Positions 35,151-43,411 of a stretch of 64,000 nucleotides of DNA are shown piece by piece. The DNA is from Paracoccaceae bacterium (GTDB taxonomy: Bacteria > Pseudomonadota > Alphaproteobacteria > Rhodobacterales > Rhodobacteraceae). A program made the translations under genes and the position numbers. The DNA lies in assembly GCA_022448925.1 (NCBI GenBank), contig JAKVCP010000003.1, positions 1-64,000 on the forward strand, written 5' to 3'. Each line of letters begins with the position of its first letter. The first letter of the stretch is position 1. The notes beneath the pieces are model-generated. The model was not told where the DNA came from, searched no databases, and was given only the letters and a program-made list of their open reading frames with translations.

Positions 35151-36435
35151 TCAAAAATTTAGACTTACGGAATTTTTAATGGTCTTGTGATATTCTGTTG
35201 AAGCAAACATCTGGAATCGAGCGCCTTTTGCGACACTTTGAGGCCTACTGGGTGAGCGATGGCGTATTGACCTGGTGACCCAGCCCTTTGATCCGGGCCG
35301 TTTGGATGGCGAACCCGTTTCTGTTCTTTGCTGTGTTTTTATTGCTGTCCAGGCCTGCTGAGCGGAGACTGTGCGTCGCTCAAGCCAAACAGGGGGGGCA
35401 CGATAAAGAGTGGCGCACACGACTGGAGCCAGTCCGCCAAGTGATATGAATGGCGGTCGTTTGCTGTAATCAGTGCCCCAGTTTTTAATGATCTTGCCTG
35501 CTTCAGCAAGATTGCCGGAGATGTGTTCCTTCAGGCGTTCATCTCGCAATTTGCCTATGAAGCTTTCCACAAATGCGTTTTGTATTTGTTTGCCCGGCGC
35601 ACTGTCTTGCCAGTTCACACCTCAGTCTTGACACCACTTCAAGACGGCATGCGATGTCATCTCTGTTTCATTATCAGAGACAACCATACCCGGGTGACCA
35701 TGCCAGCGGATCAGATCGTCCAGTTCACGGAGCAATCGCTTCTCAGACAAGGAACGATCCACAACCTTTGCCAGTGCCTCACGGGCCCACTCATCCGAGA
35801 AACACAGCACTGGAACCTTTGGGCCTCTTCACAGGCATCAGAAACGAAGTCCAACGACCGTCGCTGATGCGCGCGATCCGGCATCAGAACAGGTCGGCGA
35901 GTGCTCAGAGCCCATTGACGTGGCCGTCTGCGGCGCACTGAATTACCGTCCTGTGTTTCATGTCAAAGCCCTCTCTGGTGAGCAGGATACCCAAACGGCG
36001 ATAGCCGAACCAGCGATGTTCATTCGCCAGTTCGCGCAACCTCTTTCGCAGAGCATCATCGCCCTGTTCCTGCTTCTGATACTGAAAGACGGACCTGTGC
36101 AGGTCCAACAAATCACGCGCCCGACGCTCAGACACGCCGCGTCACATCAGGCGTCAGTCATTTTTGTCGCGCGATCCTCAAGCGCGGCATCAACCATTAT
36201 CGCATCCGCCAACATGCGTTTCAGCTTGTTGTTCTCGTCTTCCAGAGCACGAAGTGTCCTGGCATCTGAGGCGTTCATGCCGCCAAACTTTGCTTTCTAC
36301 TTACAGAAGGTCGCATCACTGATCCCAGAAAAGAAGCACAGCTCTTGGGCTTTAACACCCGTTTCATATTTATTTATCATTCCGATGATCTGTCCGTCTG
36401 AAATATGGTCCACCTTTCGTTTGGACGGTTTGTTT
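35151..36435 (-). mobile_element. Decayed IS3-family element (orfA and orfB)
   Basis: Reading leftward, orfA (about 36430-36146) shows the usual DGQIIGMINKYETGVKAQEL and KAKFGGMNASDARTLRALED, but a TAG replaces the conserved Trp just before KAKFGG. orfB follows in pieces in different frames: SERRARDLLDLHRSVFQY and FGYRRLGILL (36135-35905), RRSLDFVSDACEEA (about 35850), VSDNETEMTSHAVLKW (about 35650) and NAFVESFIGKLRDERLKEH (from 35618). The order is that of an IS407-type IS3 element. Several frameshifts and stops show that it is inactive. I could not fix the terminal repeats. Confidence 0.8.
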
Positions 36436-36467
36436 CCACCTCAGTGGCGAGATCTCAGGGGGCTGGG

Positions 36468-36830
36468 TCAATCTGCCGGGTGGATGCCCGCTTCATCCCA
36501 TTCTTTCTTTGGCGCCGAGTTCTGTTTGTTCGCGTCCGCCTCTATCTGGCTGGCATCAATCGCCATCTGCTGGCCGTTGACCAAACTCTCCTCAATGCAA
36601 CGGAAGACGGTCTTGTCGAACAGATGGCGCAGCAAGTCACCCCCGCGGAATCTGCGATGCTGGTTCTTGGAAACGGTAGAGTGTTCTGGCAGCCGGTCAT
36701 TTAGATCAAGGCCGCAGAACCATCGGAGGGCGAGGTTTAGCCGCACCTCTTCGCAAAGCCGCCGCCAAGAACGGATGCCCAAGTAATATCTACCTTACAG
36801 CATACGGATCAGCAGCTCAGGGTATGTGAA
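36468..36830 (-). mobile_element. IS1182-like transposase N-terminal fragment
   Basis: A frame of about 104 residues (36782-36468) contains GIRSWRRLCEEVRLNLALRW, HSTVSKNQHRRFR and AIDASQIEADANKQ, matching the N-terminal part of IS1182-type (DUF772) transposases. Homology continues upstream across a TAA as ELLIRML...GRYYLGIRS. The fragment ends where the IS3 element begins, so the latter may have inserted into it. Confidence 0.65.
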
Positions 36831-37088: not shown

Positions 37089-37505
37089 TTAGAAACGTCC
37101 AAAGCTATAGGCTGGCAAACCAAAGCACAAAATGCCGATTAACCCGCCAATCAGCTGGAAATTTGATAGAAACAGCGCGCCGACAATAGAAATGGCCAGC
37201 AGTATGACACAGGTCGTCAGGCTGATGAACCAATGGGGAACATGCGTCCGAGGAACCTGAATCAGAATAGCCAACAGGATAAGTCCCAAAGCCGTTGAAA
37301 AGAATCCCATCAAAAGCGAGATGCCTTGGAAAAGGTCCCATGCCGAAACCGCGCTTCCTTGCAACGCGACCGGTCCGATCCCCAAAAAACGTGCCCTTAG
37401 GTCATCCCCGGCCAATTCCGCGAAGTGAACATAGGTATGCATGATACCAATGACGATGAAAGCGATGCTTCCCGCTGCGAATGTCCTTCTAGACAGTCTG
37501 ATCAT
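37089..37505 (-). CDS. Small four-helix membrane protein (TetR-linked, module 1)
   Basis: This 138-residue protein has four hydrophobic helices (about residues 8-26, 56-84, 92-113 and 115-134) with a conserved-looking GIMHTYVHF at the first helix end and AWDLFQGISLLMGF in the second. It resembles small uncharacterised membrane proteins of the LIC_13387 type. It is divergent from a TetR gene, with one of two palindromic operators 14 bp before its start, so it is almost certainly the repressor's target. Its function is unknown. Confidence 0.75.
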   Translation of the reverse strand: MIRLSRRTFAAGSIAFIVIGIMHTYVHFAELAGDDLRARFLGIGPVALQGSAVSAWDLFQGISLLMGFFSTALGLILLAILIQVPRTHVPHWFISLTTCVILLAISIVGALFLSNFQLIGGLIGILCFGLPAYSFGRF

Positions 37506-37518
37506 TCAACCCCTCCAA

Positions 37519-37576
37519 CCATACACTAGTGTCTTGTAGTGGTCTTATTGGAGTAATTCAAGACACTAGTGTATGG
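37519..37576. promoter_or_regulatory. Paired TetR operators, 18-bp perfect inverted repeat
   Basis: Positions 37519-37536 and 37559-37576 are perfect reverse complements over 18 bp, and each contains the 10-bp palindrome ACACTAGTGT. The two palindrome centres are 40 bp apart. One lies 14 bp before the membrane gene and the other 7 bp before the TetR gene, so both divergent promoters can be covered. Confidence 0.85.
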
Positions 37577-37583
37577 TGGCAAA

Positions 37584-38123
37584 ATGAAACGATTGACGAA
37601 AGATGACTGGGTCCAGTTCGGCCTGAAAGTTCTAAAGAACGAGGGATATTCGCAGCTGAAGGCCGGCACACTGGCCAAAAGGCTCAATGTATCGCGGGGG
37701 TCCTTTTATTGGCACTTTGAAGACTTGAATGCGTTTCACGCGGCGCTGATTGCTGAGTTCTGGTCAGTCAGCGAAAATATTGCATCCACGTTGGGATCAA
37801 ACCATGGCCCACATCAAAAATTGCAATTTTTGATGCATGCAACCCAGCAAGCGGATTTTGAACTGGAGCGCGCCTTTCGCGCGTGGGGCCGCGTGCATCA
37901 GGACGTTGGTCTTCAGATTGAACGTTTGGATCAAATGCGGCTTGCTGTTGTGCACTCCATCGTCAAAGACGCGATTGAGGTACCAGAAAAGTCTGAAAGT
38001 TTGGCGAAATTTACTTATGCCGCTGCGATCGGTCTTATGACTTTAGGGAAAGAGAAAGTTGGTCTGACCGACACAGATTTGGCTGGCGTGATCGATGCGT
38101 TGCTTGGGTTGGAAAGCGCCTAG
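37584..38123 (+). CDS. TetR family regulator (module 1)
   Basis: This 179-residue regulator begins with a helix-turn-helix (about residues 25-50) with LAKRLNVSRGSFYWHFEDLNAFHAAL. It is clearly related to the TetR at 42851 (both have FYWHF.D..AFH and a similar AIRAWGR/AFRAWGR segment in the ligand domain). I take the ATG at 37584; an upstream in-frame start would lie inside the operator. It probably represses the divergent membrane protein and itself. The inducer is unknown. Confidence 0.87.
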   Translation: MKRLTKDDWVQFGLKVLKNEGYSQLKAGTLAKRLNVSRGSFYWHFEDLNAFHAALIAEFWSVSENIASTLGSNHGPHQKLQFLMHATQQADFELERAFRAWGRVHQDVGLQIERLDQMRLAVVHSIVKDAIEVPEKSESLAKFTYAAAIGLMTLGKEKVGLTDTDLAGVIDALLGLESA

Positions 38124-39210
38124 GTTCATCACATGCAGGCTCAAGTTGATCAGTATGTCGCTTATGTGTCGCAACACCATTCCAAGAGGAGACATTGGGA
38201 CAATAGGGCCGAGAGTTCGCCTCGTCTCCCATGGCAGACCTAAGTGCAAAGCGCAGCGCATGACCACGTCTCACCCTGATTTGCGCCAGCGGCGTACAAT
38301 ACGAGCGGGAATGTAGTCATTATCTTGATGTATTCTGCGCAAAAACCGAGTGTCTTACATTTGGGGATTGTCACAGGGGCTGACCCTTTTGCGGTGGCGC
38401 GATGCGCATCATTGACAGGTTCCGGCGTGGCCAAAGTGTCCGATCCTGCGCTGCAGCAAGGAAACCGGCTGCATGACCAAGTGTCCAGTCATCACTTCCA
38501 ACGCAGATCTATTGGCTCATTGAAAGCCGCTGACCTGTTTCACGTCGCTTTAGGCACCAAACAAGGCAGCCGGAAGATCAATCAGGCGTTTCACGTACAG
38601 AGTGAGAACGCCCCGCACTCGCGCTTGAAAGCGTTCCTTTGCCTCTTCAAAGGGGCTCCACAAAGTATGTGGATGGCAATGTAACTTGGCACTTTGTGAG
38701 CGAAGCCTCATGGGCAAAAGATGCGTTTGAGGGGCCCTTCGACACGCCTTGAAAGCATGCTTGTAAATTCTCTCCAAAGACACAGGTTCACCAGAGGCGC
38801 CACCGTCATATGAGCCCTCGGCCTGTCTTTCCTCCAGAGGAGTCTTTCGCGCTGCTAAAAGCAGCACAGCAAATTCCGCCTTGGCCGTATAGCCATCGCT
38901 CAGATCCACGCAGGCCGGAACAGTGATCGGCTCCCGGCCTGAGATCACGATTTCCTGCTCATGCGCGTCATGACGGAAGCACTGTTCATCCCAGCAGTTC
39001 CGACCTTTACGATTGACTTGACCCCAGTCGCCCTCAGATCCGGAAAATCTTGTGTTTGCAAATTTAGGTCGCCCAATATTGCTGCACAATCAGGACTGAC
39101 CATTGTTTCAATGGCGCTACCAACACGGAATTCAGACATCGTCTTTTTATTTGATTCCTTGGGATCAGTCGCTAACCTTCCGCGAAACCAGTTTATTTCG
39201 AGATGTTTTT
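38124..39210. other. Gap with no recognisable gene
   Basis: About 1.1 kb with overlapping frames on both strands, such as 38550-39089 (minus) and 38325-38684 (plus). Neither has a domain I recognise or a convincing ribosome binding site, and they overlap each other. The sequence has the look of decayed coding or IS-derived DNA near the remnants upstream. Confidence 0.4.
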
Positions 39211-39747
39211 ATGCTGTTTCGTTTGACCGTTCTTGGGTGTTTTTTGTCGAGTGCAAGTTCGGCTGCAACGCTGTCACTGGCCTATGATCCGGAACGGCTG
39301 GCACTGGCACAGGGAGTGTATTGCAAGCAAGAGACCGTTGATACTCTGGCAGCGCCCAATACTGAGGCTGGGGAAATCAATTTGTTCGAGCGCTCTCCCG
39401 ACTTTCTTGCCGAAACCAATGTCATTCCGGCACTTCTTGGGATCGGCTTTGGTATCAAGGTCGAAACGCTTGACGGCGCATTTTATGATCCGGTCGAAGT
39501 CACCGTGACTCATCCACCATTCCAACACACCGGGACCACCACACAGCGCTACATGTCGACGATTGGCGGCACCGGCGGATCGATCGTCGCTTACAGCTTT
39601 GATATCCCGCGTGAATTGGCGGTCGGCACCTGGACTTTCACGGTCAGTACGATGGATGAAACTCTGTACACTGCCACCTTTGAAATCGTGGCGCCAGGCC
39701 AAGCGCCAAATTACGCGGCCCTGTGCGCAGGCGATCTGACCTCTTGA
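39211..39747 (+). CDS. Secreted DUF3859 domain protein
   Basis: This 178-residue protein starts with a signal peptide (about MLFRLTVLGCFLSSASSAA) and continues as a DUF3859 domain. Features that fit are an early Cys-containing strand (QGVYC), APNTEAGEINLFER, GIGFGIKVET, TVTHPPFQHTGTTTQR and TWTFTVS near the end. DUF3859 proteins are exported and of unknown function. I use the ATG at 39211 because it starts the signal peptide. It converges on the TauE-type permease, with stops 3 bp apart. Confidence 0.72.
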   Translation: MLFRLTVLGCFLSSASSAATLSLAYDPERLALAQGVYCKQETVDTLAAPNTEAGEINLFERSPDFLAETNVIPALLGIGFGIKVETLDGAFYDPVEVTVTHPPFQHTGTTTQRYMSTIGGTGGSIVAYSFDIPRELAVGTWTFTVSTMDETLYTATFEIVAPGQAPNYAALCAGDLTS

Positions 39748-39750
39748 TCG

Positions 39751-40518
39751 TCACGACATATATCCACGGCGGACCAGGTTCAGCCCGGCAAGCAAAAGCA
39801 CCAAGAGCGTGACCCTGCGAAATCCCGCCTGGTCAATCCGGTCCTGCATTTGCCCTCCGATCCACATGCCCAGCACCGCCGGGGCCACCAGTGCCAATGA
39901 AAACAGCGCAGAGGTCCAATTGAAAATGCCCGACCAGATGTGCGCGACTGTCAACGCTACCGCGCCAAGACCATAGATGACCCCCTGAACTCTCATCTGC
40001 TCGGTCTTTTCAGTGCCGATAGCTGTCAAATAGGACACCGTCGGAGCCCCCCAGGACCCTGAGATCCCGCCAATCACACCAGCCAATCCGCCCACCAGAA
40101 CCTCGGCGCGGGTCCCGCCCCCTTTGGACATCTTGGGCTTCCACCCCAACAACTGGACACTGGCCAGTCCCGTGACAACCAGACCGATGATCAGAAACAT
40201 CACGGCCGAGGACATAACGGGCACCAATTGGGCGGCGGCCAGCAGAGTGACCAAACCAACGAGCAAGAATACACGAAATCGGCTGATCGAGTCTGCAGCG
40301 GCCGACCACCCCTGCCGCAGGGCCTGCATCCCATTTGTGACCAGAGTTGGCAGGATCAACCCGGCCAGTGCCAGCTCAGGTGCAATCAGGCTGCCCAAAC
40401 CAGAGATCAGAATGGTCGGCATGGCAAAACCCACCACACCCTTCACCACGCCCGCAATCAGCGCCATCGCACAACAGCACGCAAACATAAGGGGGTCGAT
40501 TATGTACACATTTACCAT
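39751..40518 (-). CDS. TauE/SafE family sulfite-exporter-like permease
   Basis: This 255-residue inner-membrane protein has about eight hydrophobic segments in two similar halves, each starting with a Gly-rich pattern (GVVKGVVGFAMP and GLAGVIGGISGSWGAP), as expected of the TauE/SafE family of anion exporters. Members export sulfite or sulfoacetate-like compounds, but the substrate here is unknown. No sulfonate genes are adjacent. Confidence 0.85.
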   Translation of the reverse strand: MVNVYIIDPLMFACCCAMALIAGVVKGVVGFAMPTILISGLGSLIAPELALAGLILPTLVTNGMQALRQGWSAAADSISRFRVFLLVGLVTLLAAAQLVPVMSSAVMFLIIGLVVTGLASVQLLGWKPKMSKGGGTRAEVLVGGLAGVIGGISGSWGAPTVSYLTAIGTEKTEQMRVQGVIYGLGAVALTVAHIWSGIFNWTSALFSLALVAPAVLGMWIGGQMQDRIDQAGFRRVTLLVLLLAGLNLVRRGYMS

Positions 40519-40666
40519 CTGTTTGTCCTCATAGCAGGTCTGACCCTGCCGCGCTGCAGAAATCAGCGCGTAATTTTAGAACCAATTGCTTTGTGTATTG
40601 GTATTTTTGTTGCGCTGCGGATGCAAAGTCGTTATGCCGGAGCGCAGCAAAAGGAGGATGTGATTC

Positions 40667-42355
40667 ATGGCTCATGACGGACAGGATCTTACACCCCAGG
40701 TCGGTATCGTTCTGCCAGACCTTCTGACCCTTACCGGTGCGGCACTGGCCCCGGTTGCAACGGTTGTCGACACCGCTCGTGCGCGGGTTCGGTCGTTGGT
40801 TGAGTTGGACGGTCGGGTTGCAGCGCATCTGATTGAGGCCAATCAGACAGCGGCGCATGGCCTGGCTTGGCTCGCGACATATGCAGAGGCCCTGCAGCAG
40901 ATGCAGGGCTGGGCAACCGCGCTGGATGAAACAGGCAAATTCGGTGAAATGGAACAGTTGCTGCTTCAGATCACATTTGGTGAATACCTTTGGCAGATCT
41001 ACGGCGGCATCCCCATGAGCCAGGGCGAAATCCTGCGCTTGCAGGATCTTGGCCTAACCCAAGACGAGATGGGCGTGTTGATGACGCCATCGACGATGAT
41101 CCTGACACAGACCGGCAACACAGAGGCCGCGCGATCGCGCTTGGTTGAATTGATGCGAGAGCGGTCAGCAGAGGGGACCGTCGGGGCAAGCGGTCTGGAT
41201 GACGAGCTTGAAATGATTCGTGACCAATTCCGCCGCTATGCCGCGGAAAAGGTTGAGCCCTATGCGCATGAATGGCACTTGCAGGACGATCTGATCCCGA
41301 TGGAAATCATCGAGGAGCTGGCGGATCTGGGCGTGTTCGGTCTGACAATCCCCGAAGAGTACGGCGGACTTGGCATGAGCAAGGCCTCAATGTGCGTCGT
41401 GTCAGAAGAACTGTCGCGCGGCTATATCGGCGTTGGATCGCTTGGGACGCGAACGGAAATCGCGGCAGAGCTTATCCTGGCCGGCGGGACGGAGGAACAG
41501 AAGGCAAAATGGCTTCCGGCACTCGCATCCGGTGAGAAGCTGCCAACCGCTGTTTTCACCGAACCAAACACGGGGTCAGACTTGGGCAGTCTGCGCACCC
41601 GCGCCGTCAAGGATGCAGACGGGACGTATTCGATCACCGGAAACAAGACCTGGATCACCCATGCGACCCGAACCCATGTGATGACGCTTTTGGCCCGAAC
41701 GGACCCTGAAAGTTCCGACTACAAGGGGCTCAGCATGTTCCTGGCGGAGAAAACACCAGGCACGGACGACGTGCCATTTCCTACCGACGGCATGACCGGT
41801 GGCGAGATCGAAGTGCTGGGCTATCGCGGCATGAAGGAATACGAGCTTGGGTTCGACGACTTCAAGGTCAAGGGAGAGAATCTGCTTGGCGGTAAAGAGG
41901 GCCAAGGCTTCAAGCAACTCATGCAGACCTTTGAAAGCGCACGAATACAAACTGCCGCACGGGCAGTTGGCGTGGCCCAATCGGCACTTGATCTGTCCAT
42001 GCAGTATGCCGAGGATCGCAAACAGTTTGGCAAGTCACTTATCAATTTCCCCCGCGTGTCGTCAAAACTGGCAATGATGGCTGTTGAAATTATGGTGGCG
42101 CGTCAGCTGACCTATTTCTCTGCTCGCGAAAAGGACAATGACCGCAGATGTGATCTCGAGGCCGGGATGGCCAAGCTGCTGGGTGCCCGCGTCGCGTGGG
42201 CAGCGGCCGACAACGGCTTGCAGATCCACGGTGGCAATGGCTTTGCGCTGGAATACAAGATCAGTCGTATCCTTTGCGACGCACGGATTTTGAACATATT
42301 CGAGGGCGCGGCTGAGATTCAGGCCCAGGTCATCGCGCGACGTTTGCTGGGCTAA
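40667..42355 (+). CDS. mcd: (2S)-methylsuccinyl-CoA dehydrogenase
   Basis: This 562-residue acyl-CoA dehydrogenase carries an N-terminal extension of about 165 residues before the usual flavoprotein fold, the distinctive build of methylsuccinyl-CoA dehydrogenase of the ethylmalonyl-CoA pathway, which makes mesaconyl-CoA. Core motifs are FTEPNTGSDLGSLRTRAV, NKTWITHATRTHV and LQIHGGNGFALEYKISRIL. AGGAGG precedes the ATG. Two other enzymes of the pathway (ccrA and ecm) lie about 18-22 kb downstream, which supports the call over a general acyl-CoA dehydrogenase. Confidence 0.9.
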   Translation: MAHDGQDLTPQVGIVLPDLLTLTGAALAPVATVVDTARARVRSLVELDGRVAAHLIEANQTAAHGLAWLATYAEALQQMQGWATALDETGKFGEMEQLLLQITFGEYLWQIYGGIPMSQGEILRLQDLGLTQDEMGVLMTPSTMILTQTGNTEAARSRLVELMRERSAEGTVGASGLDDELEMIRDQFRRYAAEKVEPYAHEWHLQDDLIPMEIIEELADLGVFGLTIPEEYGGLGMSKASMCVVSEELSRGYIGVGSLGTRTEIAAELILAGGTEEQKAKWLPALASGEKLPTAVFTEPNTGSDLGSLRTRAVKDADGTYSITGNKTWITHATRTHVMTLLARTDPESSDYKGLSMFLAEKTPGTDDVPFPTDGMTGGEIEVLGYRGMKEYELGFDDFKVKGENLLGGKEGQGFKQLMQTFESARIQTAARAVGVAQSALDLSMQYAEDRKQFGKSLINFPRVSSKLAMMAVEIMVARQLTYFSAREKDNDRRCDLEAGMAKLLGARVAWAAADNGLQIHGGNGFALEYKISRILCDARILNIFEGAAEIQAQVIARRLLG

Positions 42356-42395
42356 GCTGCGGCGGCGCCGAACTGTCCGGCGCCAGCCATCAATA

Positions 42396-42770
42396 TTACG
42401 TTCTCGCCCAGACCATAAGAGCAGGGATCAAAAGGAAACCGATCCACTGCGGCATCGGCCAGACCGACCCCAGATCGGCAATTCCAACCACCAAAAACAG
42501 CCCGGCCAAACCCAACTGGATGGCGATCATCATGATCTCCATCGGCCTGTTGGCGTGGCGGCTGACCCAAGCCAGCCCCAGTGCGAAAACGGTAAGCAAC
42601 ACGGTGACCGCATGCCAAGCAACCGTGCTCACAGAGCGTACGACCTCGTCCAGCGCGCTTGCGCGCACGGGCGCATTTATTTCGGGCCCGCCCATGAAGA
42701 CATGGACCAGCGTTAGCAAAGCCATCAGACCGGCTGCCAGGGCCATTTTGGGGTTCAGCGTCAAAGTCAT
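42396..42770 (-). CDS. Small four-helix membrane protein (TetR-linked, module 2)
   Basis: This 124-residue protein has four hydrophobic segments (about residues 8-26, 48-68, 77-98 and 104-121). His residues sit near the first and second helices (TLVHVFMGGP and VAWHAVTVLL). In size, topology and divergent TetR partner it mirrors the protein at 37089, though direct sequence similarity is slight. It converges on mcd. Function unknown. Confidence 0.72.
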   Translation of the reverse strand: MTLTLNPKMALAAGLMALLTLVHVFMGGPEINAPVRASALDEVVRSVSTVAWHAVTVLLTVFALGLAWVSRHANRPMEIMMIAIQLGLAGLFLVVGIADLGSVWPMPQWIGFLLIPALMVWART

Positions 42771-42785
42771 GTCGTTCTCCTGATT

Positions 42786-42844
42786 CCATACGGCAGCGTA
42801 CGGATAGGCATGCCCCTTGATTTAATCAATACGGAACCGTATGG
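42786..42844. promoter_or_regulatory. Paired TetR operators (module 2)
   Basis: The right site (42827-42844) contains ATACGG-AA-CCGTAT, perfect over six bases per arm. The left site (42786-42803), CCATACGGCAGCGTACGG, is a weaker version. CCATACGG and CCGTATGG at the outer edges form an inverted repeat, and the centres lie 41 bp apart. The sites lie 15 bp before the membrane gene and 6 bp before the TetR gene. Confidence 0.75.
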
Positions 42845-42850
42845 AGAGGC

Positions 42851-43411
42851 ATGGTCAAATCGCCGCAACTTTCTGCCGAAGACTGGGTGCTTGCCGGGTT
42901 TCGTGCACTCACACACAAGGGCCCGCACGCCTTGCGAGCCGAACCCTTGGCGCGCGACCTCAAGGTCACCAAGGGGTCGTTCTACTGGCATTTCAAAGAC
43001 GTCGCGGCATTTCACGACGCCATGCTTACCCTATGGGAAACACGTGCTTTCCATGACATCGCCGACGCGCTGAACCGCATCCCCGATCCCGCCAGCCGGC
43101 TGCGCATGCTGGCCGAAATATCGGCAACCCCCTCTGACGAGCAATATGGTGGGATTGGCGCGGAAACGGCCATTCGTGCCTGGGGACGATCCCATCAGGG
43201 TGTGGCAGAGGCCGTCCGACGTGTCGACGGGCAGCGCATTGCCTATGTACGTCGAATACTGGAAGACCTTGGACTGGCACCGGACCCTTGGGCACGACTT
43301 GTCTATGCCGCCTACGTCGGGCTTGAAGACCAGTCCACCCGCGACGCTGCCGACAACCTGCCCGCCATGCGCGGCATGGTCGAGATGATCCTGTCCCAAG
43401 CCCCCCGCTGA
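42851..43411 (+). CDS. TetR family regulator (module 2)
   Basis: This 186-residue regulator has a helix-turn-helix with LARDLKVTKGSFYWHFKDVAAFHDAM and a ligand domain with AETAIRAWGRSHQGVAEAV. It is homologous to the TetR at 37584 and, like it, is divergent from a small membrane protein with two operators in between. GGAGAGG serves as ribosome binding site and abuts the right operator, so binding should block its own expression. It converges on the flavoprotein gene, with stops about 10 bp apart. Confidence 0.87.
   Translation: MVKSPQLSAEDWVLAGFRALTHKGPHALRAEPLARDLKVTKGSFYWHFKDVAAFHDAMLTLWETRAFHDIADALNRIPDPASRLRMLAEISATPSDEQYGGIGAETAIRAWGRSHQGVAEAVRRVDGQRIAYVRRILEDLGLAPDPWARLVYAAYVGLEDQSTRDAADNLPAMRGMVEMILSQAPR

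Follow-up and report, generated by a model that had tools for sequence, protein, structure and literature searches.

Two neighbouring TetR modules with small membrane protein genes carry related, distinct predicted operators

The 64,000-nucleotide stretch of contig JAKVCP010000003.1 (Paracoccaceae bacterium) analysed here, referred to as the window, contains two units, about 5 kb apart, in which a gene for a small membrane protein is divergent from a gene for a TetR-family repressor. In module 1, the membrane protein P0001 (37089-37505, minus strand; 138 amino acids, LIC_13387 family) is paired with the repressor P0002 (37584-38123, plus strand; 179 amino acids), for which the ATG start was adopted, a GTG lying in frame at 37569. 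In module 2, the membrane protein P0003 (42396-42770, minus strand; 124 amino acids), for which no Pfam or NCBIfam model was reached, is paired with the repressor P0004 (42851-43411, plus strand; 186 amino acids). Both repressors pass the 24-bit cut-off of the TetR_N domain in Pfam (PF00440; 28.4 bits for P0002 and 27.0 bits for P0004) and share 36% identity across 158 aligned columns (E 1e-30). The two divergent pairs with homologous repressors that an earlier note on this DNA (the original prediction) had described are indeed present. P0002 carries Arg38 and Gly28, and P0004 has Lys at the place of Arg38. The intergenic gaps measure 78 bp in module 1 and 80 bp in module 2, with sites at both ends.

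Each gap holds two palindromes. The predicted operator 1a (37519-37536, CCATACACTAGTGTCTTG) lies on the membrane-gene side of module 1 and is of the ATACA type; operator 1b (37559-37576, CAAGACACTAGTGTATGG), on the TetR side, is its exact reverse complement. In module 2, the predicted operators 2a (42786-42803, CCATACGGCAGCGTACGG; membrane-gene side) and 2b (42827-42844, CAATACGGAACCGTATGG; TetR side) are both of the ATACG type. The geometry that had been claimed for both modules was recovered by measurement. The palindromes start 40 bp apart in module 1 and 41 bp apart in module 2, as expected from the claimed 40-41 bp. The distance to the membrane gene, given before as 14-15 bp, is 15 bp from the start codon both for the 14-bp framework site of module 1 and for the 18-bp site of module 2, and on the TetR side the 18-bp sites end 7 bp (module 1) and 6 bp (module 2) ahead of the ATG. 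When up to one mismatch is allowed, the pattern CMATACRNNNNYGTATKG matches the 3.48-Mb genome at the four module operators only, and its reversed-pattern control gives one forward and one reverse match. Both systems are therefore likely to act locally.

The original prediction had also held that the operator cores of the two modules differ. This stands for the spacer and for the fifth base of the half-site, which is A in module 1 and G in module 2, yet the cores are not two separate words. The sequences ACACTAGTGT and ATACGGnnCCGTAT appear unrelated because they were cut at different places, and in a shared register both modules follow the common framework ATACxNNNNxGTAT. Module 1 then reads ATACA-NNNN-TGTAT, from which both copies depart once, on the inner arm, and module 2 reads ATACG-NNNN-CGTAT, with one departure in the membrane-side copy 2a.

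To place the modules among their relatives, 157 distinct TetR relatives were gathered from whole genomes and plasmid records, four weaker genome matches to P0004 being left out. The plasmid-derived relatives, which include Actinomycetota, Bacillota, Deinococcota, Chloroflexota and Cyanobacteriota, come from 13 records taken from 97 (60 listed) and picked for organism diversity, and from another set in which 15 of 17 were taken. The tree and the residue count are based on the 126 rows with the required helix pattern; the 31 rows without it were set aside and analysed later. Relatives of P0004 (E 1e-12 or better) occur in 68 of 198 family genomes and relatives of P0003 (E 0.001) in 17 of 195 related genomes, the own genome included in both counts, while P0001 relatives were found in 1 of the 195, which is the own genome. 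Neither P0001 nor P0003 has a match in the plasmids. The paired operator pattern is present in 16 of 198 family genomes (own included), compared with 1 of 198 for the reversed pattern. In one of these 16 (G074, L062) no TetR stands next to the site, which looks like a chance occurrence. Exact framework sites lie upstream of 77 of the 126 pattern-bearing TetRs. Upstream of TetR starts their density reaches 4.21 per kb (118 in 28,017 bases), about 190 times the 0.022 per kb of the remaining DNA of these loci (8 in 364,980); shuffled upstream DNA gives 0.009 per kb (12 in 1,394,600). Both the pairing of TetR with a membrane protein and the paired operators, whose conservation in related genomes the original prediction had made its touchstone, thus recur there. 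One of two operator pairs in genome G004 departs from the usual arrangement: a P0003-family gene (L005, 1462-1896) has paired ATACG operators (1858-1915), no adjoining TetR was found, and the sole TetR match of this genome at E 1e-12 sits elsewhere (L038). Regulation in trans is therefore possible at this locus.

Among relatives with a scored site, the fifth half-site base follows the residue at position 38 of the repressor. All 25 Arg38 rows with a scored site carry ATACA, among them the window's own row (L001), which was scored by hand as each of its sites has one departure. The 50 scored Lys38 rows carry ATACG (41), ATACC (8) or ATACT (1), and ATACA in no case. Ser38 is accompanied by ATAGA in both scored rows, and Ile38 by ATAAC in one. 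A scan free of a given half-site, in which any 5+5 dyad with a 4-bp spacer was accepted, returned ATACG in 41 and ATACC in 8 of 80 Lys38 rows, and ATACA in 24 of 36 Arg38 rows. When the columns occupied in 70% or more of the 75 scored Lys38 and Arg38 rows are compared, column 38 is the sole perfect separator of the two classes, with a mutual information of 0.918 of 0.918 bits. Position 28 comes second (0.765 bits; Glu in 46 of 50 Lys38 rows versus 1 of 25 Arg38 rows), and the next column reaches 0.667 bits. On a tree built without column 38, three changes between Lys and Arg fall among the scored rows, and the operator class changes three times, in step with them. Scored rows from other phyla have Lys38 with ATACG or ATACC, plus one Ser38. 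The rows set aside before the count form a further concordant group: the 30 Arg38 rows without Gly39 show xxACA dyads (TGACA, GTACA, CGACA) in 7 cases and xxAC[GCT] dyads in none, against 0.06 of 30 in shuffles, the limit being that 23 of the 30 show neither dyad type. The only Lys38 row that had been set aside (L212) has ATACG. The operators vary in step with the residue that likely reads the DNA, as distinct specificities would require, and we infer from this covariation that the two repressors may bind orthogonally.

Further operator variants were seen in smaller numbers. The second Lys38 operator class, ATACC, is spread over several clades (L107, L118, L121, L138, L152, L190, L198, L199), with L101 and L147 mixed. 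Rows with Ser, Thr or Ile at position 38 have ATAGA, ATAA-like or ATAAC half-sites (L135, L137, L144, L150, L195, L211; few rows each). Four Lys38 rows (L035, L042, L049, L050) are devoid of ATACx sites and show TGCTGCA-like words followed by TGCA upstream of the TetR gene; these words presumably resemble PhaR sites.

The position of the inner operators suggests how the repressor genes could be controlled. By consensus match only, a TetR-1 promoter is predicted at 37548-37577 on the plus strand (TTGGAG, 18 bp, TATGGT at 37572-37577; 3/6 at -35), and a TetR-2 promoter at 42817-42845 on the plus strand (TTGATT, 17 bp, TATGGA at 42840-42845; 4/6 at -35). Operators 1b and 2b each fall in the spacer and over the -10 of the respective predicted promoter. 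Among the relatives, 29 of 78 rows have a TetR-side site that begins at -22 or -23 and overlaps a TATG hexamer at its end, and the hexamer is TATGGT in 21 of these 29. With spacings of 16-18 allowed, the best -35 position has TTG in 18 of the 29, and the mean best match is 3.8/6 versus 2.3 at random places. The operator probably covers the -10 of the TetR promoter. A Shine-Dalgarno-like word is found in the leader of 1 of the 29 rows, P0004's own, and many of the corresponding repressor transcripts may lack a leader.

The membrane proteins of the two modules have a similar outline. Four hydrophobic segments are found in both P0001 and P0003 at one threshold, and four and three, respectively, at another. 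Single-sequence models show four helices in both proteins at low confidence, with a predicted local distance difference test (pLDDT) of 64 and 62 and a predicted template modelling (pTM) score of 0.41 and 0.35. P0001 matches the NCBIfam model NF047765 (LIC_13387 family) with 47.3 bits (cut-off 33) and no Pfam family up to E 1; for P0003, NF047765 is not among the matches up to E 1. The NF047765 family is present in 6 of 385 class genomes, own included. Neither for the LIC_13387 family nor for the DUF names of the partners was a paper found in the open text of PubMed Central (PMC). The P0003 family, aligned with 15 relatives, has invariant H23, G27, W52, H53 and L59. Its profile matches the family of HSxLGE-type partners (E 2.6e-7), which in turn match a third partner type (E 3.4e-10). 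DUF3995 (PF13160) and DUF6463 (PF20064) resemble P0001 and P0003 in being small membrane families next to TetRs of the same subfamily. Three DUF3995-type rows showed no detectable relationship to the P0003 or the P0001 family, and homology of the P0001 family with the P0003 family or DUF3995, which had been considered, was dropped as the comparisons found none. Solved structures gave no convincing match for the membrane families, and no efflux or transporter family in NCBIfam or Pfam reaches its cut-off for P0001 or P0003. Weak matches of the relatives' partners, all below their cut-offs, were set aside (AmiS/UreI with 17.2 of 25 bits in L091, TspO with 19.8 of 180 bits, and several DUFs).

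A divergent small membrane partner was called in 30 of 79 site-bearing loci. The automatic rule asked for a divergent gene of 100-170 amino acids with at least three hydrophobic segments, and it misses at least four cases: L037 (contig edge), L072 (213-amino-acid fusion), L192 (two segments found) and L215 (DUF3995 gene downstream). Other partners, as read from their sequence, are VOC-type proteins, a flavin monooxygenase and cupins, and proteins annotated as DUF2867 stand beside or behind the TetR gene. Such mixed partner types suggest responses to small organic molecules. Taken over the subfamily, the membrane proteins seem to be interchangeable outputs of the switch, recruited from families without detectable mutual relationship. 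They might protect against a hydrophobic or reactive organic molecule sensed by the TetR, an idea that we put forward tentatively and with considerable doubt. Variations in gene order were observed as well. In L026 (478-1920, G126), a Lys38 TetR with paired operators is followed by a four-helix gene without Pfam or NCBIfam match and then by a LIC_13387-family gene on the same strand, so two membrane types can share one switch. In L009, L010 and L011, the P0003-type gene runs up to, or into, the beginning of a TetR gene on the same strand, which gives an operon rather than a divergent pair.

The surroundings of the two modules differ. Module 1 lies next to transposase remnants (35151-36782, minus strand; rve_3 and DUF772 above their cut-offs, HTH_21 below its own). 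Module 2 follows an acyl-CoA dehydrogenase gene (40667-42355, plus strand; PF00441, PF02771 and PF02770), which is a conserved neighbour located outside the switch. Such a gene lies within 1 kb upstream of the TetR gene, on the same strand, in at least 10 of 157 loci, a lower bound because most loci hold just 1-2 kb upstream. In four of them (L002, L003, L004, L136) a P0003-type gene sits between the acyl-CoA dehydrogenase gene and the TetR gene, and in the other six (L035, L044, L045, L051, L052, L053) a P0003 relative was not found. An eleventh acyl-CoA dehydrogenase match (L121), 33% identical and on the opposite strand, was not counted. The nearest relative of P0001 (85% over 88 residues) is cut by the end of a short contig labelled Hyphomicrobiaceae and has other flanking genes. 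There (L021, 1561-2764) it follows a gene that reads as SRPBCC-like, and the AT-rich flanks suggest transfer or mis-binning.

Both modules belong to a known kind of unit. According to PMC3511530, divergent TetR-family genes less than 200 bp from their neighbour mostly repress that neighbour, and TetR itself uses two palindromic operators between tetR and tetA, both promoters being repressed. As in the TetR/tetA switch, a TetR-family gene is divergent from a membrane gene in both modules, with two operators in a gap below 200 bp. Unlike in TetR/tetA, the half-sites are ATACA or ATACG with a 4-bp spacer, a small four-helix protein replaces TetA, and repression is proposed only. Residues 1-60 of P0002 align with residues 1-60 of TetR class B chains, in a register that we take to be exact at positions 28 and 38. 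Gln38 of TetR is one of two side chains that hydrogen-bond operator bases, and Gln38, Pro39 and Thr40 matter for recognition specificity (PMC7102968). For AmtR, the equivalents of positions 28 and 38 are tabulated in the DNA interface (PMC2723105). Since the role of TetR residues 38-40 in specificity is known, the principle is not new, and the possible novelty is the subfamily-wide rule; a residue-38 rule was not found in print within the open PMC text. EilR was set aside as a comparison, its half-site being unlike those of the modules (PMC6127294). The best solved match of P0002 is AcrR (residues 9-66, E 1.7e-5; VTRGAIYWHF versus VSRGSFYWHF), the likeness being seen in the DNA-binding part only. 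We did not use the AcrR operator, which we presume to have another spacing, as a test.

We consider it probable, from sequence comparison, that the two modules are independent, locally acting switches of the TetR type from one subfamily, in which residue 38 goes with base x of the operator. In the proposed mechanism, a TetR dimer would bind both operators of the short gap between the divergent genes, the outer one next to the membrane gene's promoter and the inner one over the promoter of tetR itself, so that both genes would be repressed, including the repressor's own, and a small-molecule ligand would release the repression. The subfamily would read the half-site CCATACx, and residue 38, located where the recognition helix begins, would go with x (Arg with A; Lys with G, C or T); a direct contact, with residue 28 taking part, is the probable basis. 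Each repressor would then be expected to prefer its own operators. More broadly, it may be proposed that in a TetR subfamily spanning several phyla residue 38 (with 28) sets base 5 of the CCATACx half-site, that single substitutions create natural orthogonal pairs, and that bacteria keep several such switches per genome, each driving an exchangeable small membrane protein. On this wider proposal we are evenly divided.

Several observations weigh against these readings, and some of them would suit an explanation by descent, in which residue 38 and the operator base merely travel together, specificity being set elsewhere or the repressors cross-binding. The tree offers only three scored changes between Lys and Arg, of which one lies on starred branches, so that a sign test cannot reach 0.05 and is uninformative; the causality of residue 38 is therefore unproven. 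Position 28 varies with the classes too. Every scored Arg38 row comes from the host's own phylum, which makes the test in other phyla one-sided. An exact site is missing in 11 of 36 Arg38 rows and 30 of 80 Lys38 rows, so the rule covers only part of the subfamily. Because Lys38 occurs with three different bases (G, C or T), the identity of residue 38 is not enough to determine base 5, and the column comparison found no column that explains G versus C among the Lys38 rows. In one unscored Lys38 row (L201) the two halves of an imperfect dyad disagree, one being ATACC and the other ATACA, and both module 1 sites deviate from the framework by one base each. The low share of loci with a called membrane partner means that this protein is not an obligate part of the unit. 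As to the promoters, the GAGG in P0004's own leader makes a leaderless transcript less likely there, and the start codons of the relatives were picked by script, which affects the promoter geometry. Common descent as the whole explanation nevertheless appears unlikely to us. Of the columns examined, none but position 38 divides the two classes without error, and this position corresponds to a residue through which TetR contacts bases. Site-bearing Lys38 rows from other phyla have ATACG or ATACC, and the group set aside before the count agrees.

The role of the membrane genes and the origin of the modules leave room for other explanations. If the TetRs regulated only themselves, the membrane gene would be a bystander of a shared intergenic region, as could be read from two Lys38 rows (L039, L045) that keep two sites, one with a departure, where the script found no divergent gene. 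However, the outer operator is close to the start of the membrane gene in both modules, small membrane genes recur as partners in Lys38 and Arg38 rows, and the P0003-family gene of G004 keeps paired sites with no adjoining TetR found, which makes this very unlikely. The membrane proteins could also be efflux pumps of the SMR type that their own substrates induce, in the way tetracycline induces TetA. Four helices, a TetR partner, a size of about 125-140 amino acids and the subthreshold AmiS/UreI match of the partner in L091 (17.2 versus 25 bits) would fit this; yet no SMR model is among the NCBIfam and Pfam matches of P0001 or P0003 up to E 1, nor among the Pfam matches of the 15 P0003-family alignment members up to E 0.1, and the partners of the subfamily are not membrane proteins alone, so that we hold such pumps to be rather improbable. 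The original prediction saw in the two modules a local duplication of one cassette that later diverged to orthogonality, and their matching gene order, operator layout and spacing, their distance of 5 kb and their homologous TetRs do invite that view. It did not survive the comparison with relatives. In a tree made by a quick method and supported only by the Shimodaira-Hasegawa-like approximate likelihood ratio test (SH-aLRT), P0002 falls in a clade of 19 rows, all Arg38 (support 95), and P0004 in a clade of 25 rows, all Lys38 (support 96), and both clades include proteins of many other genomes; a smaller 92-row tree supports the P0002 group at 83-89, without a star. BLASTP found no relationship between P0001 and P0003, and neither did a profile comparison of their families (E 0.18). 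With an acyl-CoA dehydrogenase neighbour at one module, transposase remnants at the other, and a layout that is common in the subfamily anyway, duplication on the spot is extremely unlikely, and it is more probable that two anciently related modules came together at this place.

TetR repressors are widespread sensors in bacteria and a main source of parts for synthetic switches, and their operators are usually found singly. A rule linking residue to base in a subfamily would, if it holds, allow operators to be predicted from sequence and orthogonal pairs to be chosen without screening. As several small membrane families are tied to one kind of sensor, the same switches may also offer a way in to their inducers.

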